From Diplonema papillatum (lineage: Eukaryota > Euglenozoa > Diplonemea > Diplonemida > Diplonemidae), in NCBI GenBank assembly GCA_030068145.1, contig JAPJBO010000374.1, forward strand, positions 124,001 to 188,000: a stretch of 64,000 bases of DNA. The letters run 5' to 3'. A program made the translations under genes and the position numbers. A model generated the notes under the pieces. The model made no database searches. It saw only the letters and a program-made list of their open reading frames with translations, and had not been told where the DNA came from. Every line of letters starts with the position of its first letter. The stretch's first letter is position 1. This document shows positions 8,733 through 54,908 of the stretch, piece after piece.

Positions 8733-8927
8733 GTACAAACCCGGCACAAACCCGGAAAAACTCCAGAGTGGATCACACCATCAAAGCAAACTTGCACGCT
8801 CTAAAAAAGTTTGATGCGTCGACATCCAGCCCCACCATGAATTAGAGATGGATTCTATTTGGTTCCTTCTGAAAGAAGGAAAAAGTAAGAGCTCGTCACT
8901 CGCACAACCGCGGCAGATGCAAAACTA

Positions 8928-9719
<792 letters not shown>

Positions 9720-9750
9720 GATTAGTGGACACACAACATCTTCCCCCTCT

Positions 9751-18144: not shown

Positions 18145-19270
18145 GTGGCTGGGCCAGGAGCAAGCTCGCCAAGCAGCCGGCGCAGTTGGCCGCCGCGCCG
18201 AAGAAGCGACTTCTGATGTTCTCGATCGCGTCGCGGTCGCAGCGGGACGTGCTCCTGGCCCAGTCACCCCGTGCAGCCGGGGTGTCCACCCTGCAAAAAG
18301 CTGCACATCTAGGATGTGCAGCCGCCATGAAGGCAGGCGTGCACTGTTCCGAGCGTGCATTGCATGTACATCCCACCGAAAACAGGCTGTCGACAACGAG
18401 CAAGTAAGAAGTTAGCAGCGGAAATGGGAGGAACAACCCCAACTTGCGCATTTCATTACATACCCGTTTTCACATTTCTTTCCGACCGCGCAAAACTGGA
18501 GGCTCCAGACAAAAAAAACCGATCCCATTTGTTAAGCCCTCAAAATTCCTCTGCAAAAGACGCTTTTTCTGAGCTAAAGCCAAGGTTGGGCCCGTAGCGA
18601 AACCAGGAGTGAACTACCCGCGGAAGAGGTTGACGCAGTTGGCCGCCGCGCCGAAGAAGCGGCTTCTGATGTGTTCTGGATCGATGATGGTCGTAGCAGG
18701 ACGTGCGGCTCTCCCTCTTCAGGTACATCATGCAGATGAACCCTGCCGCGCCGACCGCCGACGTGAGGTACGCCCGCCCCGGCGTCAGCACAAACGCTGG
18801 GGCTTGGACCTCCATCTCCGCACACTTCCCCTACCCCCCCGCACAAATCCTGCGAGGGGTCGGGCTGCTTGGCGAGTCCTGCGAGCTCCTGGCCGAGTCA
18901 CCCCTTGCAGCCGGGGTGTCCACCCTGCAAAAAGCTGCACATCTAGGATGTGCAGCCGCCATCAAGGCAGGCGTGCACTGTTCCGAGCGTGCAGTGTATG
19001 CACATCCCACCGAAAACAAGTTGTCGACAACGAGCAAGTAAAAAGTAGCAGCGGAAATGGGAGGAACAACCCCAACTTACGCATTTCATTACATACTCGT
19101 TTTCACATTTTTTTTTTTTCCGACCGCGCAATACTGGTCCCATTTTTTGAGCCCTCAAAATTCCTCTGCAAAAGCCGCTTTTTCTGAGTCAAAGCCAAGG
19201 TTGGGCCCTTAGTAAACTACCCGCGGAAGATTGACCCCTCGCAGGATTTGTGCGGGGGGGTGGTGAGGGG
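18145..19270. pseudogene. rearranged partial copies of the Rce1 gene 5' end
   Basis: Pieces of the intact gene at 19,283 recur scrambled. 18,160-18,240 is a minus-strand copy of codons about 39-66, joined to a plus-strand copy of codons about 67-84 (18,241-18,300). 18,610-18,850 is a minus-strand copy of the start region through codon ~60 (its own ATG reads leftward from 18,815). 18,870-18,935 is again plus-strand. Two direct copies of a linker with GTCGACAACGAGCAAGTAA follow at about 18,390 and 19,020. None encodes a complete domain. Confidence 0.8.
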
Positions 19271-19282
19271 AAGGTTGCGGAG

Positions 19283-20161
19283 ATGGAGGTCCAAGCCCCG
19301 GCGTTTGTGCTGACGCCGGGGCGGGCGTACCTCACGTCGGCGGTCGGCGCGGCAGGGTTCATCTGCATGATGTACCTGAAGAAGGAGAGCCGCACGTCCC
19401 GCTACGACCGCGACGCGATCGAGAACATCAGAAGCCGCTTCTTCGGCGCGGCGGCCAACTGCGCCGGCTGCTTGGCGAGTCTGCTCCTGGCCCAGTCACC
19501 CCTTGCGGCCGAGGCGTCCACCCTGCAAAAGCTTGGGTTGGGCGGCGGCCTCTACGGGCAGGCAGTCGCGACAGCCTCCTGCGCGTCGTTGACCCTCCTG
19601 TTGTTCGCGGGAGTTTTGAGGGAGAGCGTGCACGAGAAGTCGCTGCCGACGGTGTCCGTCCGCGGCCTGTTGCTTCCGGCAACCAGTGCGGAGTACCAGC
19701 AGGCGAGGGCGTACCTGGTGGGGCCCCTGTCCGAAGAAATCGTGTTCCGCGTTTGCACGCACTTTTGGCTGCACGCGGCCGGGGTGCCGCTCGGGCGGAA
19801 CGTCGCGTTTTCCGTCGCCTCGTTTGTGCTGGCCCACGTGCACCACCTGTACCGCTACCTCGCGTCGAAGTCTTTCGCCCGCGCCCTGCTGGTCGTCCTG
19901 GCCAACTGTGTCGTGCACTCCACGTTCTCCCTGTACTCTTCGTACTTCTACATCGTGACCGGTTCCCTGCCCGCCGCCTTGGTCGCGCACTCGCTGTGCA
20001 ACTGGATGGGGCCACCTTCCCTCGGGTACCTTCAGGACGGCTCGATCCCGAACTCGGTGAAGTGGCAGATCACCGCTGCATACGTCGTCGGCATCACGGG
20101 CTTCCTCTACTTCGCTCCGCGGCTTGACCCGAGCTTCTTCGGGTCGTACTTCTACGCGTGA
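19283..20161 (+). CDS. RCE1: CAAX prenyl protease 2 (Rce1-type, type II CAAX endopeptidase)
   Basis: Predicted ER-membrane endopeptidase that removes the last three residues of prenylated CAAX proteins. Single exon, 292 codons, stop TGA. Family signatures appear in order: GPLSEEIVFR with Glu151-Glu152 and Arg156; FVLAHVHH with Phe181 and His185; HSLCNW with His236 and Asn240. These are the catalytic positions of the ABI/CPBP superfamily. Hydrophobic segments near 14-31, 55-72, 95-112, 172-186, 203-217 and 262-277 fit a multipass protein, and the length matches eukaryotic Rce1 (about 290-330). The start is chosen at the ATG giving MEVQAPAF because the upstream in-frame ATG (19,250) adds only a Gly-rich stretch and the inverted 5' copy upstream preserves the same start. 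GC-rich codons. Confidence 0.9.
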   Translation: MEVQAPAFVLTPGRAYLTSAVGAAGFICMMYLKKESRTSRYDRDAIENIRSRFFGAAANCAGCLASLLLAQSPLAAEASTLQKLGLGGGLYGQAVATASCASLTLLLFAGVLRESVHEKSLPTVSVRGLLLPATSAEYQQARAYLVGPLSEEIVFRVCTHFWLHAAGVPLGRNVAFSVASFVLAHVHHLYRYLASKSFARALLVVLANCVVHSTFSLYSSYFYIVTGSLPAALVAHSLCNWMGPPSLGYLQDGSIPNSVKWQITAAYVVGITGFLYFAPRLDPSFFGSYFYA

Positions 20162-20520: not shown

Positions 20521-21342
20521 CCACGGTACGGAGAAGCGCTCGAATCGTTCGTGTCCTGTACAGCTGCGTTGTGGTGTCAACGTACTTCGTGCTGATTCGG
20601 GAAATCCTAAGTAGTCTTTGTCATGGTACCTGTGGACTTGAAGTCTGCCGACTGTGATTGTGGCACTGAGCCGGAGATGAAGTGCTTGTCATCACCCCTT
20701 CACCGCGCTTCGCATGCGCTGTGCATGCCTACAGACATGTGGGTGCAGCGTGCACATGTGCTCTGATGCCGGTAAATGTTCCGACAGATCGGTAGTTGTG
20801 GTAGCAACCCTTTTTTCAGATAGCAGCCGCGTGCGCAAGGAGCAATCGTTTGTGGCACTGCCAGCGTATTTGCTCGCGTCGCAGTCCCTTCATTGCGCCT
20901 TCCTGGGGGCCGTCCGCGGTCCAGCTGCGCCGTGCAATCCGCGCGCTCTCACTTTCTGCACTCTTCGTGCTTTACAGTGAGTGGCGGGCGGGGTTGTCCG
21001 CATCTATGCAACGTTGCTTCACTTGGTCAATTTGAGGTGTACATGTAAGATGTCTACACACGGACAGTCCTCTCGCCCCCCAGACGACTGGTACATGGCA
21101 TGGCATTCATACACGTAGTACTCGCAGGCGACACTTCTGGCGTCATTGCGTGCTTTCTCTCTGCACTGCGAACTCCAGCCACAGAGGATCGAGTGGGAAA
21201 AAAACAAGAAGAGGCGGGTGTGCGCCCCACACCGCGCCCCAAAAGTCTGGCGGTACTTGGTGCCTCCTTTTTTTCTCGCCGAAGAACAAGAAAAACCTTC
21301 GTCGCGGGGAAAAAAAAAAAAAAAAAAAAAAACGACCCTGAA
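20521..21342. other. intergenic region upstream of the LINE ORFs, possible LINE 5' UTR
   Basis: No gene seen. Weakly repeated pieces around 20,700-20,800 resemble 20,215-20,310. A run of about 23 A bases (21,310-21,332) sits ten bases before the ORF1 ATG. The true 5' end of the retrotransposon could not be located. Confidence 0.4.
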
Positions 21343-22446
21343 ATGTCGACTGTGTCTGAAAAGCGCATCATCGAGCTGTCGTCCATTAAGGACGACCTCA
21401 AGCGGCTACTTTCCATCTGTGGACCAGCGGAAGGGTTCGGCAACCTTTTCAAAAAAATGGGAGGCGAGGCAGCCATCGAGGACGTACGGAACGCAGCCGG
21501 TTTCTTCCGCTCGAACGCCATTAAGTTGGTACGGGTAAAGGAGAACTGCGACGAGAAGGCCATCTTTCAAGCGGTCCGCGAAGCCGGATATAGTGCGTAC
21601 TACGCAGAGTGGGCACTCCCAGAACCGGGATGGACTGAGCTGAAAACGTTCCAACGCGCAGAAGCACGGAAGGACAGCACGATCCTCCCATTCCACGAGG
21701 TGATGCGGGCCCTCGAGGACACCAGGATGGACGCCCGCGTCCTGCGCACAGGCGCAAACGAATACCTTATAAAGGTGCGCCCCGACACTGAAGGCAAGTG
21801 GACGGACCTGGCAGAGCTGTTAGACCCGTCGGGAATGGCCCTGAAACACGGCGACAGATACATCGTCACCAAAGCCCGACGTGAAGATCAACGACAACAG
21901 TTCGTGGAGAGATCGAAAGGAAAATTCGGCTTGACGGGCTGTGACAGGACTTTCCACACGCTGGAGATCTCCGGGGCGCTAGCCACAGCAGCAATACGCC
22001 CCCAGATTGGTCAACAACTGCGGGTGTATCCGGTGTTCGGACTGCGGCCGGGCTTCGTTGCATATGTCGTGGAGGGTCTCGACCCTGTGGACGAAGCAGA
22101 TCTCGCCAGGATCCCGTTTGCAACCCCTTTCGGGAACGTGCTGCGGTTTGGGCAGATCGGCCACCTCATGAAGCCGGACACCGAGGACGCCCAACCTAAT
22201 TTGGCGGAGGACACCAGTGACGACGAAAGCGGAATTGCAGAAGAAGACGACGGCAACCAACGGCAAGCGACGCACGTAACCAACACAGAGGAGCAGAACA
22301 ATGACGAAGAAGACGACGGTCCGCCGCAGATCGAAGAGGGGGAAGTGTCTCAGGACAAACATGACGAAGAAAGGCGTGGAACAAAACGAGCAGCTCCCGG
22401 CGAAGCCGGATGGACACCACCACCGAGAACCCCACCCAGGCTGTAA
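21343..22446 (+). CDS. LINE ORF1 protein
   Basis: Probable nucleic-acid-binding protein of the retrotransposon, 367 codons from the ATG at MSTVSEK, stop TAA. The frame is open further upstream to 21,100, but that part is encoded by an A-run and low-complexity DNA, so the later ATG is preferred. The N-terminal 300 residues look globular and basic/aromatic with no motif I can name; no CCHC knuckle is visible. The last ~95 residues are very acidic (EEDDGNQ, NNDEEDDG) and end in a basic-proline tail (RTPPRL). The next ORF follows in the same frame immediately after the stop codon. Confidence 0.75.
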   Translation: MSTVSEKRIIELSSIKDDLKRLLSICGPAEGFGNLFKKMGGEAAIEDVRNAAGFFRSNAIKLVRVKENCDEKAIFQAVREAGYSAYYAEWALPEPGWTELKTFQRAEARKDSTILPFHEVMRALEDTRMDARVLRTGANEYLIKVRPDTEGKWTDLAELLDPSGMALKHGDRYIVTKARREDQRQQFVERSKGKFGLTGCDRTFHTLEISGALATAAIRPQIGQQLRVYPVFGLRPGFVAYVVEGLDPVDEADLARIPFATPFGNVLRFGQIGHLMKPDTEDAQPNLAEDTSDDESGIAEEDDGNQRQATHVTNTEEQNNDEEDDGPPQIEEGEVSQDKHDEERRGTKRAAPGEAGWTPPPRTPPRL

Positions 22447-25400
22447 TATCAACCTACCGAAGCAGTGACGACGTCAAGCCCTGTGTCGCAGACGACCAAC
22501 TGCAGCCCTATCGACAATCAACCACAACCACAACCACCGCCAATTCAAGTTAACGCGCCCACGACATCAGCTGGGCCTCCCCTCTTCCCAAACCCAGCCC
22601 TCGCATCATCATCTGTGCCCCTCCTGCCAACACCCATCACTGCACGGAGCGACGCCCGCCTTCCCAACTTGATCATCCCTACCTCAACTTATCATCCACC
22701 GATTCTACCAGATGCACCACTCAGCACCGTGTCGGGGGCACTACACCTGCCTACCACCGAGCCGCGAGTAGCGCTACAGCAGCCCAACTCCTCAACCAAC
22801 CAATCAACAGTTCAGCTCACCATGTTCCCACCTACCTTCCCCCGTGGAGGCACCCAAAACAACCCCGAAAACCATCGTATCATCGCAGACCATCGTCGTA
22901 ACAACGCCGGCCAAAGCAAAGTGCGCATCGCTAGCTGCAACTCCTGCTGCAAGAAAAGCCTGGTAGCCTACTTCGACCTCCTACCCAGAACACACATCCT
23001 CACAGCGAGTGAGATTGGAAGGGATCCCCGCGTATTTGAAGACGTGGCGCTCCTCAAGGGCTGGAACCCGCTAGTCACAGCAACAGAGACGAATGGACAG
23101 AAGCGGATCGCACGCAGCAGCATTCTGATTCGAACTGACTCTACGATGCAAGTACTGCGGACTGGGTCCCACCGCTCGTGCTGCTTTGCCGATCTTAAAA
23201 TCGGGGAACACGTCCTGCGGGTGATCTCAGTGTATGTGGTGAACAACACCCCAAGGGCAGAGGCGGAGGCACTCGGCAGCTGGATCGTCAACACCATGAG
23301 GCGCTGCGTGGGAGAATACGTAGTTACCGGCGACTTCAACGGCAACACCACACCAACAGTCGAGGGAATCGTCAGACGCAACGCAGGGGACGAACTGGTG
23401 CGAGGACGCACTACATACCACAGGAGCAACGCAGATACATCGCTGGACAGAGTCTTTGTTCCCCGCAACACAAGCTGCACCTTCGAATCAGCCCGGTTCA
23501 CCGGAGGCAGTGACCATGCAGCGATCAGCCTTGAATACGACCACACGATCGTAAAGATCATCCCGCCCATGAGATACCCCAAAAACGACCGACCAACCGC
23601 AGACGACTTCGATGGCCTCATGGCAACAATGCTAAGCCCAATCGCATACCGGCCGCCCCGATACCGCACGACGAAGATTGCGCGACTCCAGCGAGCGTTA
23701 AATACGAGGATGTTGAAGCGACGCAATGCCACCGACGAAGCCGACAAGAAGGAGATGAACCGCCAGGTCAGCGACATTCGGAAACGAATCGCCTACGCCA
23801 CCAGGGGCGAAACCAGCAACCACGCCCTCCAACAACGACGACCGTACGAGCCCCCGAGAGTCCTGAATGTCGCCGCCGTAGTTGACCGGTTCCAGAGCAG
23901 ATACGACGCGGTAGCAACGCGAGCCCCTAGACCGATGGAAAAAAAAGAGGAGACCGAGAGACACCACAAACTGTCGCCGGAAGACGTAGAGACAGCGATT
24001 CCATTCGTGAAGAAGAAGGCTAGGACGACCGACCTGTCGGCAACGTTCTTATCCACACTCCGCCCAAAAGAAATTACGACTGTAGCTGACACTTTTAACG
24101 AGTGGCTGGAAGCCGGAATCCCGCACGAACATGCGCTGTCATGGATTTTTCTCATCTCGAAACCCGGCATCCCAAAAACCTCCCCGAACGCCTACCGACC
24201 AATTGCCATCATGCCACTGATGCTAAAATTCCTCCACGTCTGCGTCTACCTCAAGATCCGAGACCTCTGCATTGAGCGGATTAAAGCCAAAGACTTCCAA
24301 TACGGATGCCAGCGGCAGCATGCCACCCTCGAGATCCTCCAGCGGGCGCAAGAATGGATGGACGGCGGCGACGAAGAGGACCCAGCAGTTGTCATCGCTG
24401 ACATCGAAGCAGCCTACGACACAGTACCACACGACAAGCTACTGGAAAAAATACGCAACGACTTCGGAGACGAGTGGGCGAGATCGATCGAGGCAGTGTT
24501 AGAGTCGCAGTGGTATACGCTGACCACTAACGAAGGTTTTACCCCGCCTATGGCGCTGAGGAGAGGACTGCTGCAGGGTTCCCCACTGAGCGTGATACTC
24601 TACCTGTATTACACAGCGGACCCGCCAGACCTCACACAGTGCAAAGCCTACGTTGACGACCTTACATCTCTCGCAGCGGTCAAATCGGTCCCGGTTCAAG
24701 TACAGGTGCTCAACGACTGGATGACAAGCAGGGGCTTTAAGTTGGCCCGAAGAAAGCTAGTGGTGGTCGCTTCGAGGGTCAGCAAGATACCGATTCCCGG
24801 TCTTGGCACGGTGACGACGCGGCTGTCCACTAGACTTCTCGGGGGATGCCTACACGGAGACAACGACCACGCATCCTGTGCACGTAATCGGAAAAGAGTC
24901 GAACGCTTCAGCAGAGTCTGTGCAATGATCTCGCAGTCGTACTACTGCTCCACTCGAGGCAAGAGTGAGCTCTACAGAAGCTATGCGCTGCCAACGCTCG
25001 CCATACAGGCAGTCTCGAAGTGCTTCGACCCGACGCACCCCAAGTTGCAAGCCGCTTACACAAAACTCATCCCAAGACACCATGGAAGCAATGGAATCTC
25101 AGGATATCCGGCCTGCTCCTTTGGATACGGAATGACACCGATAAAGGACTTCTCTGAACAGCAAAAGGTAAGGGCTTACCTGGCCGCCCACCCCGACCTG
25201 ACGGAAGGCAGAATCCCAGCAACCGGATTCGAGCTGCGCCCACCGCGGAGGGTGCGAAAGCCCTACGTCATAACATGGACCGAGAGGGCGCTCAGAGAAG
25301 CTGAAGCAAGCGGCGATGTCGTCAGAGTAGCAACCGACGGGAGCTACCTGGAAAAAGAAGGCAGAGGCGCTGTCGGAATTTGCGTCAACGGCAGGGCCTA

Positions 25401-26268
25401 CGGTGCGAAGATCCATGGGAGGATCAGCTCGAGCACACAAGCAGAATTGTGTGCGATGATGGTTCTAGCGACTGCACTGAAGGAAGTCAAGCCCCACGCG
25501 ATGGCCAAGCCGCGAAGCGACAGCATGAGCGCCATCGCCCGGTTAAGGAACCCCCGCAAAGGGGACCCGGTCGCCATGGTGCTGTGCACTCTCCCAGATG
25601 TGCAGTGGGCCAGGGGACACAGCGACAATGCCGACATCAACGCGGCAGACGTCGCAGCAAACGCCGCTTACCAAAAAAGCAGCACATTCAATGTCGAATG
25701 GTGCTACCGCAAGGCCAACGTTGCCAGGCTGTGCCAACGGTGGCAAGAAGACGATACCGAAGACGACAATGGTGACCTGGTGCAACTCGAAGAAAACGGA
25801 CTCTTCGCGAGGAGAAACCGTACCGACAGTCGCGACACCGCGGTCCGTAATCGACTATCTACCGACGTACCACCTCGCTGCCTCAGCGCACAAGCCCTGC
25901 GGGCGCTGCGGAACCTGCATGGAGCTACGGATCTCCTCCAAGCACTCACCCGTAGAGCCATCATGCCGTTCAAAACCCGCAACGAGTGCGCCGTAGAAGG
26001 CTGCTACCACCGAGGAAGTGCAGATCATGTCCTGACGGCTGGCGATGAACGACATATTCTATGCTACGGACCCGAAGCCAACCTCACGCGCATCTTTGGA
26101 CAGAGTGAGGTAACGTACAGACAAGTATTGGATGAATTTGCAGCCCGCAACACAGCAGTCATACTGTCTGTTTGCGCGCGAGTCCGCTATCAGGAGCCCA
26201 GCGGAAAAGCAACAGAATGGGCCACTTGGCTAATGCACGAGATCAAGTCTAGCTCGAAGATACGATAA
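22447..26268 (+). CDS. LINE ORF2 polyprotein: endonuclease, reverse transcriptase, RNase H
   Basis: Enzymatic polyprotein for target-primed reverse transcription. Residues here are counted from the GTG at 22,465. Residues 1-120 are Pro/Ser/Thr-rich and contain no Met. Endonuclease about 152-360: Asn159, Glu183, GDFN 289-292, SLDR with Asp328, SDH 349-351. Reverse transcriptase about 555-780: ADIEAAYD 645-652, QGSPLS 704-709, YVDD 729-732. RNase H about 952-1072: Asp958, Glu994, Asp1019, Asp1062. A Cys1175/Cys1180/His1188/Cys1200 cluster resembles a zinc knuckle. All catalytic residues are present. The frame begins directly after the ORF1 TAA; the first Met is at residue 120 (22,822, context CACCATG). 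Translation may use readthrough or reinitiation. Confidence 0.93.
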   Translation, partial: YQPTEAVTTSSPVSQTTNCSPIDNQPQPQPPPIQVNAPTTSAGPPLFPNPALASSSVPLLPTPITARSDARLPNLIIPTSTYHPPILPDAPLSTVSGALHLPTTEPRVALQQPNSSTNQSTVQLTMFPPTFPRGGTQNNPENHRIIADHRRNNAGQSKVRIASCNSCCKKSLVAYFDLLPRTHILTASEIGRDPRVFEDVALLKGWNPLVTATETNGQKRIARSSILIRTDSTMQVLRTGSHRSCCFADLKIGEHVLRVISVYVVNNTPRAEAEALGSWIVNTMRRCVGEYVVTGDFNGNTTPTVEGIVRRNAGDELVRGRTTYHRSNADTSLDRVFVPRNTSCTFESARFTGGSDHAAISLEYDHTIVKIIPPMRYPKNDRPTADDFDGLMATMLSPIAYRPPRYRTTKIARLQRALNTRMLKRRNATDEADKKEMNRQVSDIRKRIAYATRGETSNHALQQRRPYEPPRVLNVAAVVDRFQSRYDAVATRAPRPMEKKEETERHHKLSPEDVETAIPFVKKKARTTDLSATFLSTLRPKEITTVADTFNEWLEAGIPHEHALSWIFLISKPGIPKTSPNAYRPIAIMPLMLKFLHVCVYLKIRDLCIERIKAKDFQYGCQRQHATLEILQRAQEWMDGGDEEDPAVVIADIEAAYDTVPHDKLLEKIRNDFGDEWARSIEAVLESQWYTLTTNEGFTPPMALRRGLLQGSPLSVILYLYYTADPPDLTQCKAYVDDLTSLAAVKSVPVQVQVLNDWMTSRGFKLARRKLVVVASRVSKIPIPGLGTVTTRLSTRLLGGCLHGDNDHASCARNRKRVERFSRVCAMISQSYYCSTRGKSELYRSYALPTLAIQAVSKCFDPTHPKLQAAYTKLIPRHHGSNGISGYPACSFGYGMTPIKDFSEQQKVRAYLAAHPDLTEGRIPATGFELRPPRRVRKPYVITWTERALREAEASGDVVRVATDGSYLEKEGRGAVGICVNGRAYGAKIHGRISSSTQAELCAMMVLATALKEVKPHAMAKPRSDSMSAIARLRNPRKGDPVAMVLCTLPDVQWARGHSDNADINAADVAANAAYQKSSTFNVEWCYRKANVARLCQRWQEDDTEDDNGDLVQLEENGLFARRNRTDSRDTAVRNRLSTDVPPRCLSAQALRALRNLHGATDLLQALTRRAIMPFKTRNECAVEGCYHRGSADHVLTAGDERHILCYGPEANLTRIFGQSEVTYRQVLDEFAARNTAVILSVCARVRYQEPSGKATEWATWLMHEIKSSSKIR

Positions 26269-26817
26269 CACGGAACATTTTCTTTTGGGAACCCCACCGA
26301 TCACCACAAGCACGCACTAAGCTGAACTTCACAAGCATCCAAAAGGTCGAAAGACACCAATCTGTACGTCCATTCGGATCGTCGGAAACACAAAAAAAAA
26401 CGCAACTGCCTCCATTTCCGCTGCCCCGTTTATCCTTTACGAGACCCCCCCAACTACACTGACTCCCCCTCGCCCGGCTGGTTTGCAAGAAGACGCTTTG
26501 CTGGCGGCAGAAAAATCCCTGTTGACCGCCTCGATAAATAATACGCGCCTCTTTGAGTTTGACTTTGCGCGTTGCTGGTCGTTCGAGGGGGCAGGCTGAT
26601 AAAAAAAGCGCAATGCGAATATGTCTACCCCTCTTCACTACGACCCAATGGTCAACCGTACACCGGACCCTCAAACCTGAAAGAAACGCATTCCCAAAAT
26701 AGCCTCTCGTCGCTATCAAGTTTTCCCAAAGTTTCATGCCGGATTTTCCGGGACCAAAACATGCGCTTGAAAACAACGAAAACCGAACAGAAAAAGGAGC
26801 AACTATTCACACGAGAG

Positions 26818-27519
26818 ATGAAGGCGTCCCTAGCTGCCTGCCTGCTGGGACTGCTGGCCCGTGGGGTGCTGGGCGGAGCGCCCCCCGGGTACAGGCTGGT
26901 GTGGAGCGACAACTTCAGCGCGCCGCTGAACGTGACGGAGTGGGGGACCGGCCAGAAGCCGTGGGGCACGACGGACAACCCGCCGGCCCTGATCACGCCC
27001 GAGGACACGTACCTCGAGAACGGCACGCTCGTCCTGCGGAGCCGGATGGGCAGCTTCGGGGCGTACAACTACACCACCGGCTGGTCGTACACGAAGACGT
27101 GGAGGCAGTACGGGTACATCGAAATCCGCGCGCAGTACCCGGTGGGCGCTGGGGTCTGGCCGGCGTTCTGGATGCTCAGCACCGGATGGCCGCCCGAGGT
27201 TGACGCCGCTGAGTTCAGGGGGCCCCCGCTGGGCTACATGACGAACGCGTACTACGACGGTTCGTGGTCGACCAAGGTGCTGCCCGGCAGCTACGGCGAC
27301 TGGAACACGTGGGGCCTCCTGTGGGAGCCCGGGGCGCTCACCTACTACCACAACGGGGCCGAGACGTACTCCACCAGCAAGTCGCCCAACCAGACGATGT
27401 ACATCATCCTCTCGAACGGGCTCGACGGGACGAGCTGCGGGCCCCAGACCGGGTTTCCCAACTACTTCACCGTGGACTACGTGCACTGGTACCAGAACTT
27501 CTCCTCCGCCGCAGTGTGA
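26818..27519 (+). CDS. secreted glycoside hydrolase family 16 (beta-glucanase/laminarinase-like)
   Basis: Predicted extracellular or lysosomal beta-glucan hydrolase. 233 codons, single exon, stop TGA. The chosen ATG gives a typical signal peptide (MKASLAACLLGLLARGVLGG, cleavage near residue 19-20); a further in-frame ATG at 26,761 would bury it. The GH16 active-site signature ExDxxE is intact as PPEVDAAE with Glu127, Asp129 and Glu132, preceded by the usual aromatic strand (GVWPAFWML). RQYGYIEIRAQYP before it and NYFTVDYVHWYQ at the end match the family's conserved strands. Length is that of a lone catalytic domain with no carbohydrate-binding module. Very GC-rich, without introns, and only ~420 bp downstream of the LINE; bacterial origin is possible but unproven. 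Exact substrate is not predictable. Confidence 0.88.
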   Translation: MKASLAACLLGLLARGVLGGAPPGYRLVWSDNFSAPLNVTEWGTGQKPWGTTDNPPALITPEDTYLENGTLVLRSRMGSFGAYNYTTGWSYTKTWRQYGYIEIRAQYPVGAGVWPAFWMLSTGWPPEVDAAEFRGPPLGYMTNAYYDGSWSTKVLPGSYGDWNTWGLLWEPGALTYYHNGAETYSTSKSPNQTMYIILSNGLDGTSCGPQTGFPNYFTVDYVHWYQNFSSAAV

Positions 27520-35525: not shown

Positions 35526-38500
35526 CGTGAGTCCCCGGGCGGCCCGCACGCAGCAGCACCCGAAGCCGGCGCCGCAGCAGCAGTGGCAGAAGCCGGCGGC
35601 GCACACCCGCGACCACCGGCCGCCCGAAGAGCGCCCGCTCCACGGCGAACCCCAGCAGCAGCAGCAGCAGGCAGCCCCACCTGAGGGTCAGCAGCAGCAG
35701 CAGCAGCAGCAGCAGGCAGCCCCACCTGAGGGTCAGCAGCAGCAGCCGCAGAAGCCGGAGCCGGAGCCCGACCCCCTCGAGCAGCAGCCCTCCCCGCACC
35801 GGCAGCAGCCGCCGCCGCAGCAGCACCGGCCGCCGGCCCGGCCCGTGCCGCCGTTCTCGGCGCTGCCGCCGGCGGCGGGCGTCCTCTCGCCCCGCTCGCC
35901 GCAGGCGCCCAGCACGAGCAGGCTCCCCGGCACCAGCGCGCACGACCCGTCCTCGCCTTCCCGGCTCCGGGTCACCGCCGACGTTCTGCTGGTGTGCTCA
36001 TCTCTTCTAAGACTGCTGTTGAAGGTCTACGCTCTCACTCTCTTTCTCTCGGAATTGTCAGCGCGGTAGCGATGACAGCGAGAACACATATAGGTGGGGG
36101 GGAGAGGCCCTGGGACTGCTAAGGCGTGACAACCCCGCCCCTGTCCCTCCCAGGGAGCCACCCCGAACTAGCCTGCCCACCTGACGGTGGAGGCCCACAC
36201 CCTTTGACTTGTTTTGATGTGTTCTCTCGGTAGCGATGACGACGAGAACACGTATTAGGTGGGTGGGGAGAGGCCCTGGGACTGTTAAGGCGTGACAACC
36301 CCCGCCCCTGTCCCTCCCAGGGAGCCGCCCCCCCGCCCGCCTGACGGTGGAGGCCCGCACCCCACGACTTGTTTTTTTTGTTGAGAGGGAGAAACACGCA
36401 GTCTTTTTCCCTCAGGTTTTATTGTCGCAAACGAATCACCGCGTGCATCGGGCGGCGCCCACAGCACGGAACTAAGCGCCCATGCGGGGCTTCAAGCTCA
36501 TTAGACAATCGACGCATACCACACGAACGTATCAGGTTACCACACAACGTAAGCACACTCTCCCCGGTAGCTCCGGTCAGTTGACCTCCGCCGGGCTCAA
36601 AAAAAGTACCTCTCAAAAATGTTCCCTCTCTCTCTCTCTCTCTCTCTATGATAGCCTTGGCAGTACGAAGAGAAGTGAGGAGACCGGAAACTCCCCAGCA
36701 CTCGAACTCGTCTTCCTCCCTCTCGCTCGTAAGTTGCCCCAAAAGTCTCAGCCCGGCACAAATAGCTTGTTGAAAACGAATGTACACTCGGTGTCGGTTG
36801 CAAGAACTCCGGATATGACTGGCCTCAGTACGAAATGAGGGCTCGCACCGAAAAAAGACATCCACCTACACGACGATGTTCGCAAGAAGACTGGCAAACC
36901 CCCCGGGTTCTTAAGCGAACTTGCCCTCTAAACTTTCCGCTTCTCGTTTCAAGGTACTTTTCTCAGCAGTCTGTCATCAGACTTTCAGAAATTTGCTAGC
37001 AAGCAAAGATTGAAAGAATGAAAGTGTACATACAAAAAGTGTGAGTAAAAATGGCAACATGGCAACCCCTGCTCGCGTGGGGGGCCCACGACCAAATTCA
37101 AAGCGAATTTCTTCTTGGTGTCGGTCGCAACACTTACAAACAGTTAGTTAAAGTGTATAAGCATACCTACTACCCTCATACCACCCGCCTCACAGCCTCA
37201 ATGGTCAACCGGAGACCCTAAAACACCGAACCTCTAAACCACAATAAACGCTAAAAACATAGAAAACCCAGCCGCAAGGACCACCGAACAGACATACCCA
37301 CACCCAAAAGAAAGAACACCGACCCGCCTTGACTGCCGACCGTAGACACAAAACACGGATCCTTAAAACTCGAAACAGTCTAGAAATCAAAGTAGAGTCA
37401 CCTGAGGCTAAGGCCCTGCTGAGCGACTAAAATGAAAAAAAAAAAAATCATCAGGCGGAGCGCAATTTTTATTACGCGAAGCTGCGCGCCGTCGAGCTTT
37501 TGTGCCTGGACGGCGACCCAAGCGGCAGCATCACGAAGCAGACGCTGAAGGTAACACCCACCCCACACCCCCGTTCGTGTTCGGTCGATACAAAAGTATC
37601 TCGTACCAACATGTTGTAGGGATCGATTCTCTCGACTATTTTTTGATGGTCTCTTAACCCGAGAAGGAATAATCAAAACGAAGTTCTTAGCGGTTCTCTT
37701 TTGAGTTTCGTCTAAGGCCTCGTTGCGCGGGAACAATAGGGACTGCCGAGGACCTACGTCAGAGGTGCAATTCTTAGATCGTAGGAAGACGAACTTCTGC
37801 GAAAGCATTCGACAAGAATGTCTTCATTAATCAAGAACGAGAGCGTGGGGATCCAAGATGATCGGATACCGTCGTAGTCCACTTTCAGGATACGCGCGCA
37901 GTCTTTTCCCCTCCAAGGTCTCATTGTCGCAAACGAATCCCCGTGTACAGCGGGCGGCGCCTACTGCACCAGCACCGAGCATCCACGCGGAGCATCAAGC
38001 TCGTGTAGCAGCGCATCAGGCTGCCGCGCAACGCACAGCATCGCAGCAATGCACACACACGAGCATCAAGCTCGTGTAGCAGCGCATCAGGCTGCCGCGC
38101 AACGCACAGCATCGCAACAATGCACACACACCCTTTTCGGTCCGCTGACCTCCGCGGGCTTTGAAAAGCTTACCAGAGAAGCGACATAAAACGTATCCAT
38201 CCCTCCCCGCATTCAGATCTAAGCTGACGTTATGCGCTTGAGTCCACATCCGTGTCTTTCTCTTGCGTATCCGTAACCGAATTCAAGTCGTATCATCCAT
38301 CTGGGGTTCCAGATCTATATCTCTAGATACCTGTCCGCACCCGTGGCTTCGGGTCTCTGCTTGCTTTCATTGTGCACCAGGTCCAAGCCAACCCCCCGAC
38401 GCAGGATCTGCTGTATTCCTTGTCCGAAAGCCCGGACGAATCCCCGCAGCAGCAGCCGGCCGTCCTGAAGCGGGAGGAACGATCCCCGTCCCTTGCGGCC

Positions 38501-46238: not shown

Positions 46239-50244
<4,006 letters not shown>

Positions 50245-54279: not shown

Positions 54280-54515
54280 CGCGTCTTTCGTTGGAAGTCG
54301 AGGCTTGCGGCTACCTTACTTGCATTACCAGCAGTACGCTGTTGCCCAGCAAACTGGGCCACCTTGCAACCTGAGCTCTGGATCCAACTACGAGCTTTAA
54401 CAGCAGCAGCATTTATATACGCTATTGGTGCTGGGATTACCGCGGGCGCTGGCACCAGACTTGTCCACCGATTGTGTTCACTGACAGGTTTAGATATCAT
54501 GCATCGCTTCTAAGG
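54280..54515 (-). rRNA. 18S rRNA fragment (V3-V4 region)
   Basis: On the plus strand: CAACTACGAGCTTTAACAGC, ATATACGCTATTGGTGCTGG, GATTACCGCGGGCGCTGGCA and CCAGACTTG, the reverse complement of the universal 530-loop and V4-start region of 18S rRNA. The minus strand reads GCGCCCGCGG where most eukaryotes have GCAGCCGCGG, a euglenozoan trait. Limits are approximate; it is isolated from any other rDNA. Confidence 0.85.
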
Positions 54516-54908
54516 TACGAAGTACGTGTCGAGGCTATTTCTCTTCGCTGTACGACGTAGAACGGCGAACCGACACACAAACGCATCAGAAGTGGCGGAA
54601 ACCTACCTGATTGGCCTGCACCAGAAGAGCCTCCGCCAGGATCGACCGCCTACCGGGGCAGGGCTGGCGGATTCACCACTCGGCAGGCGCACGAGTCCGC
54701 AAGGCAGGCGTGTTCGACACGGGGTGCGACGGATTGGTCCGTGAGACAGCGAGACAAAGTGCTTGGGATACTAGTAGTAGTAACGCACTGTGAGGCAAGG
54801 CAAAGACTGAGCGGTGGCCAGCCTAGCGCAATGACGGTTGCGGAACGGAACGCGAGAAACGCTTGCAGAGGAATACTGCTGACGAAGTCATTGCTATAGA
54901 ACGGCGGT

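Follow-up and report, generated by a model that had tools for sequence, protein, structure and literature searches.

Compact ORF1–ORF2 junctions in a LINE clade of Diplonema papillatum and a possible AUG-independent start of ORF2

The LINE in the Window and Its Two Reading Frames

The window analysed here is a 64,000-nt stretch of the Diplonema papillatum genome (assembly GCA_030068145.1, contig JAPJBO010000374.1, positions 124,001 to 188,000). It contains a full-length young long interspersed nuclear element (LINE) at about 21333–26400, and the junction between the first and second open reading frames (ORF1 and ORF2) of this element is the subject of this report. From 5' to 3', all on the forward strand, the locus comprises an A-run directly 5' of the element (21310–21332, read from the window and compared among copies), a leader of about 10 nt, ORF1 (21343–22446), the ORF2 frame (22447–26268) and a poly-A end (26392–26400). 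As expected of a LINE, it has a poly-A 3' end and is accompanied by 5'-truncated copies. The genome is 271 Mb in size, and the genome searches scored the best candidates only, so that all copy counts given below are lower bounds. Of the 16 copies whose ORF1 start is intact, 14 begin soon after an A-run, with a leader of at most about 15 nt (the exceptions are L020 and L030). The element is therefore almost without a 5' untranslated region and seems to prefer A-runs, and a target-site duplication would be hidden by insertion into such runs (copy flanks were inspected).

ORF1 encodes 367 aa, starts with the ATG at 21343, about 10 nt from the 5' end of the element, and ends in PPRL-TAA. A Pfam search with window ORF1 (21343–22443) gave no significant match. 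Its AF2 model was of low confidence (pLDDT 60.6), and ferredoxin-fold and ACT-domain structures matched it weakly, with TM-scores of no more than 0.35 among the matches listed. At low confidence, the model may represent ferredoxin-like folds followed by an acidic, poorly modelled tail.

An earlier sequence-only reading had described ORF1 and ORF2 as sharing one frame, and this was borne out: ORF1 ends with CTG (22441) and TAA (22444–22446), and from 22447 onwards no stop interrupts this frame for 1273 codons, until the TAA at 26266–26268. It was also right that the first in-frame ATG of ORF2 lies at 22822 (context CAGCTCACCATGTTC), 375 nt past the ORF1 stop, and that NPGP, the 2A StopGo motif, is missing near the junction; the motif is absent from the whole of ORF1 and the ORF2 frame of the window. 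It had expected at least one out-of-frame ATG in between, and 22447–22822 holds exactly one, at 22712–22714. Nor did NPGP occur in the portion of the ORF2 frame that was examined at 10 loci. With the first in-frame AUG this far downstream, there is no AUG at the stop as in UAAUG-type coupling.

The 125 codons preceding the ATG (22447–22821) form a linker that is rich in proline, serine and threonine and has no in-frame AUG. It carries the motif VPLLPTP (22615–22635), and the linkers of both the sister and the third family, described below, contain VPLLPxP in frame as well. An endonuclease-like sequence begins with KVRIASCN at 22918; we take this region of ORF2 to be an endonuclease from its position and from known motifs. 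Exo_endo_phos_2 was matched in the third family at E = 0.0085, below the cut-off, and was not matched in the window copy. The reverse transcriptase domain (RVT_1, Pfam 7.5e-15) lies at 24169–24771 and is of the LINE type, its PDB sequence matches including R2 and LINE-1 ORF2 proteins. RNase H was matched weakly at 25321–25548, with a score that did not reach the Pfam cut-off.

Copies of the Window Family and Two Related Families

The window element belongs to family A, of which 13 near-identical copies, the window included, all have CTG TAA TAT and a 375-nt linker. CTG-TAA stands at the end of ORF1 in 14 of the 15 family A copies compared, and the older copy L022 has kept the stop and has 3 nt more in the linker; the decayed copy L023 was excluded from the stop counts. 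Sequence identity among young copies is weak evidence of function. The sister family B (L024–L032, nine copies) has 72% nucleotide identity to the window family. Its ORF1 stop is TAG, followed by an in-frame TAA two codons on (TAG-N3-TAA), in all eight copies shown, L026 being excluded from the stop comparison table, and readthrough in this family would therefore need to pass two stops. After the second stop the frame is open beyond the Met homologous to that at 22822, and in eight of the nine copies the linker length is divisible by three. Five more family B copies have a linker identical to that of L030, which suggests recent activity.

The ORF2 of the third family, C, has 51% amino-acid identity to that of the window family. 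ORF1 terminates with TAG in two branches of this family and with TAA in a further one, and ORF2 uses the -1 frame, which becomes open 8 nt after that stop and does not overlap ORF1. In the family C linker, which has VPLLPxP in frame, a Val aligns with the window Met at 22822, and the first in-frame Met, codon 38, lies 122 nt beyond the end of ORF1. A comparison of L034 with L038 over ORF1 was disregarded, since a frameshift in L038 distorts it.

ORF1–ORF2 Junctions in Nine Families

A genome search with ORF1 gave 112 matches, with 111 of 191 candidates scored. Ten of 12 further junction loci were usable (the junction of L042 was unreadable, and in L051 a deletion has fused the two frames), and seven more loci added no new family (L055–L057 and L059 belong to family E, L058 to I and L060 to D, and L054 joins an unrelated flank). 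The families are A (window), B, C, D (L043), E (L044 and L045), F (L046), G (L048, L049 and L053), H (L050) and I (L047 and L058).

ORF1 ends with TAA or TAG in all nine families, and in all nine the ORF2 frame is open from no more than 8 nt past this stop. The frame of ORF2 relative to ORF1 is 0 in three families, with a single stop in A and D and two stops in B, and -1 in the other six. Overlaps of the -1 frame with ORF1 measure 85 and 103 nt in E, 40 nt in F, 28 nt in G, 22 nt in H and 10 nt in I. An endonuclease/reverse transcriptase tree with ten rows requires the frame to have changed at least once to account for A, B and D, the same-frame families (single-change support 64/51).

The first in-frame Met after the ORF1 stop falls within the endonuclease in families F, G and I, so that these families have no in-frame AUG able to start ORF2. 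An AUG in the ORF2 frame does precede the endonuclease in families C, D, E and H; in D and in L044 no other ATG comes between it and the stop. Twenty-eight of the 41 family G matches span the full 601-nt junction query at 99–100% identity, and 25 of the 31 equal-scoring family F matches to a distant endonuclease query have a 1179-codon open frame; both families can be read as recently active.

Some side observations were made at these junctions. By eye, the motif (S/T)PPx(K/R) was seen near the ORF1 stop (22414–22428 in the window) in seven of the nine families, A to G and not H or I. An in-frame (G/T)CA GYG AC(G/A) soon after the stop was noticed post hoc in A, B, D and G; it is a possible start region, and together with VPLLPxP it serves as a lead only. 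ORF1 and ORF2 are fused in L051 (C798), which belongs to family G: a deletion bounded by 2 nt of microhomology has left a single open frame of 1556 codons.

Coding Signature of the Linker

A 375-nt stretch of the window composition would be open by chance in about 8% of cases; the open frame of the window copy alone is therefore weakly informative, and it is the relatives that carry weight. For the six families with an AUG before the endonuclease, the chances of openness were 0.081 (A), 0.163 (B, after the second stop), 0.37 (C), 0.74 (D), 0.31 (E) and 0.41 (H), with a product of about 5e-4 if independence, which holds only in part, is assumed. In the better-preserved copies L022 (+3), L029 (+42) and L032 (+33), the indels that lie in the linker before the first in-frame Met keep the frame, unlike the changes in L021 and L026 described below. 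The protein score of the window and sister linkers was 108 in frame 0; the shifted frames gave 88 and 63, and the highest of 1000 shuffles reached 102. For the sister against the third family the scores were 76 and 84, values reached by 18 and 5 of 1000 shuffles, respectively. A substitution test of the linkers of L030 and L032 gave P 0.048 in frame 0, and the other four pairs besides that of family E were non-significant. The sequence-only reading had argued that the stretch before 22822 is translated. The openness in nine families, the in-frame indels and the frame-0 protein similarity make this probable and fall short of proof, and the case for a translated linker leans on the pattern across families over any single test.

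Nucleotide Conservation after the Stop

Over the last 24 codons of ORF1, comparison of the window with L030 gave a ratio of nonsynonymous to synonymous differences (pN/pS) of 0.20, with 3, 3 and 16 differences at the first, second and third codon positions. Over the 19 comparable codons after the stop, pN/pS was 1.34, with 4, 4 and 2 differences and a synonymous divergence (dS) of 0.15. As both the ratio and the codon-position pattern change there, constraint shifts at the stop from amino acids to nucleotides. A block at 22459–22506, conserved at the nucleotide and not at the codon level, is identical between window and sister family at 41 of 48 nt, with P from 8e-9 (45% neutral identity) to 1e-4 (60%); the block limits were set after viewing the alignment, and the neutral identities are assumed. 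Branches a and b of family C are identical at 40 of 41 post-stop nt (P from 1.5e-7 at 63% to 4e-5 at 73%), and dS between family C branches was 0.49–0.61 in ORF1 and endonuclease and 0.34–0.48 in the remaining linker.

How ORF2 May Be Translated

The reading that we favour, with a probability of about 0.47, is that translation of ORF2 in this LINE clade starts without an AUG and is coupled to termination of ORF1. Having terminated at the ORF1 UAR (UAA or UAG), the ribosome or its 40S subunit would remain on the RNA, sequence around and just past the stop would aid its restart, and ORF2 would begin at a codon other than AUG, no more than a few tens of nucleotides from the stop. Initiation of ORF2 would then depend on termination of ORF1. 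With a restart so close to the stop and at a non-AUG codon, the frame relation of ORF1 and ORF2 would be free to drift between families, and an AUG-less restart near the ORF1 stop could account for all nine. In the window, in-frame GUG or ACG codons near 22465–22485 are candidates only for the start codon. The wider proposition, put forward tentatively, is that a whole eukaryotic LINE clade has no ORF2 start codon, with a non-AUG restart beside the stop that is directed by short post-stop RNA and not fixed in frame.

Several findings weigh against AUG-independent restart. The window and sister families share a conserved and well-placed AUG at 22822, and no start codon common to all nine families was found. 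In family A, the diverged copy L021 has lost 10 nt at the stop and 17 nt within the linker, two changes that are each out of frame. The sequence-only reading had named a lost stop and a linker frameshift as changes that would count against its proposals; they are absent from all 13 near-identical copies and present only in L021. The family B copy L026 carries a 146-nt linker insertion that is out of frame, and in L057 (C277), a diverged copy of family E, TTG replaces the ORF1 stop TAG and the frame ends four codons later. The gaps in the family C linker alignment are all multiples of three and all lie downstream of the first in-frame Met, and they are therefore uninformative on an AUG-less start. 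The linkers of the window and the third family scored 50 and 55, which was not significant (389 and 342 of 1000 shuffles as high), and a pairing of frame 0 with frame 2 scored 57, above the in-frame pair. Selection on the linker upstream of the Met is weak, with frame-0 ratios of 0.34–0.81 and P <0.05 in two of six pairs; the family E ratio is 0.36 (P 0.027), yet frame 2 gives 0.44 (P 0.065). The post-stop similarity of the window or sister family to the third family was not significant, and no stable RNA structure was predicted around the stop in six folds (z-scores from -0.92 to 0.86).

The strongest rival for the window element is a start at AUG 22822. Ordinary reinitiation or internal entry would occur there past about 375 nt of untranslated spacer, other families would use their own AUGs, and the AUG-less families would frameshift by -1. 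The 23 nt spanning this AUG (22810–22832) are identical in the sister family, only a single ATG intervenes, and C, D, E and H each offer an AUG in the ORF2 frame ahead of the endonuclease, the first ATG after the stop in D and L044. However, these AUGs are at non-homologous positions, the Met of A and B being Val in C, and the stretch upstream of the AUG stays open in the families that have one. The protein similarity between window and sister families is also located upstream of the AUG, and a canonical slippery heptamer is missing in five of the six overlapping loci. Reinitiation at 22822, raised in the sequence-only reading, is thus possible for the window element and fails for the clade at large, since in three families the endonuclease is not preceded by any in-frame AUG; as an explanation of the whole we consider it doubtful.

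Readthrough, frameshifting and splicing are not favoured over AUG-independent restart, because each fails several families or finds no support. Readthrough of the single UAA, which the sequence-only reading had proposed, would give an ORF1–ORF2 fusion in the window family. The shared frame, the single stop and the intact linker length in all 13 near-identical copies are compatible with it, and family D is arranged likewise. As a common mechanism it is ruled out by the sister family, with its two stops in frame, and by the third, whose ORF2 lies in the -1 frame and does not overlap ORF1. For the window family itself it is unlikely: the pN/pS of 1.34 shows no coding signature directly after the stop, the context UAA UAU CAA is without a CARYYA-type motif, and no stable structure is predicted. 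Ribosomal frameshifting by -1 in the overlapping families, with secondary changes elsewhere, could draw on the five of nine families whose ORF2 overlaps ORF1 in the -1 frame and on the single in-frame heptamer AAACCCG of L046. We regard it as very improbable, since a canonical in-frame heptamer lies within the overlap in only this one of the six loci examined, the shortest overlap is 10 nt, and such a shift is impossible for A, B and D, in which both ORFs lie in the same frame, and for C, which has no overlap.

Hardly to be expected is splicing, by an intron that removes the stop or a trans-spliced leader that supplies an AUG at a post-stop CAG. CAG sites do occur soon after the stop in several families, and independence of frame would be explained. 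However, among the family G matches listed, the partial ones begin at query positions 25, 25, 149, 338, 358, 379, 384 and 456, and none begins at the CAG (first base after CAG, query position 401). Three truncated copies have no common leader, a dinoflagellate leader sequence was unmatched at up to one mismatch, and the sole fused copy, L051, is a microhomology deletion without GT-AG ends. An altered genetic code with UAR as sense was rejected, because it would leave the frames of family C unjoined and because both ORFs of intact copies are otherwise free of in-frame stops, and so was ribosome hopping between matching codons, judged by eye only, as landing on the next CTG exits the ORF2 frame.

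Other Features of the Window

The open reading frames neighbouring the LINE encode an Rce1-like CAAX protease (19250–20161, 2.4e-9) and a glycosyl hydrolase of family 16 (26572–27519, 7.3e-12). Partial rRNA-like pieces above the Rfam gathering scores lie at 37484–37887 and 46811–47073 on the forward strand and at 54414–54591 on the reverse strand, with SSU_rRNA_eukarya as the Rfam identity of two and LSU_rRNA_archaea of one. A very long trinucleotide run at 8925–9734 gives poly-Met, poly-His and poly-Ser frames.

Comparison with Known Systems

How the second gene of LINEs is translated is a long-standing question, and the reviews consulted build on SART1 and mammalian L1. ORF2 translation depends on ORF1 in both SART1 and L1 (PMC2881922). 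SART1, a silkworm non-LTR (long terminal repeat) element, uses a UAAUG stop-start together with a downstream structure (PMC5902531, PMC5972666). The present clade resembles it as a LINE in which ORF2 would be coupled to ORF1 termination by a signal 3' of the stop (PMC5972666, PMC5902531). The difference is that SART1 has an overlapping UAAUG and a downstream hairpin, whereas the window clade has no usable AUG at the stop and no predicted structure.

Mammalian LINE-1 is likewise a dicistronic LINE for which termination-reinitiation has been proposed (PMC5972666), and in human L1 a 63-bp spacer with two in-frame stops separates the ORFs (PMC5860796). Unlike the present clade, in which some families have no AUG before the endonuclease and a frame open up to the ORF1 stop, L1 has an ORF2 AUG. 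Translation of L1 ORF2 was reportedly found to be AUG-independent by Alisch in 2006. In caliciviruses and influenza B virus, which use a termination upstream ribosomal binding site (TURBS), post-termination ribosomes also restart near the stop (PMC5972666). The viral signal, however, is located 5' of the stop and acts by pairing with 18S rRNA. The Drosophila I factor has a long inter-ORF spacer and an ORF2 bearing RNase H. Coupled reinitiation on a human mRNA requires an aspartate-rich ORF1 C-terminus (PMC3923131), to which the acidic stretch before the C-terminus of window ORF1 is a parallel only.

A literature search by titles and the beginnings of abstracts found no description of LINE families without an ORF2 AUG, which does not establish their absence from print. 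Termination-reinitiation is an already known theme in LINEs, and the present clade would be a new variation on it. As a clade in which ORF2 often has no AUG in frame, with compact junctions, differing frames and many near-identical copies, it offers natural variants for the question of AUG-less restart, and these could show which sequence directs post-termination restart in eukaryotic ribosomes.

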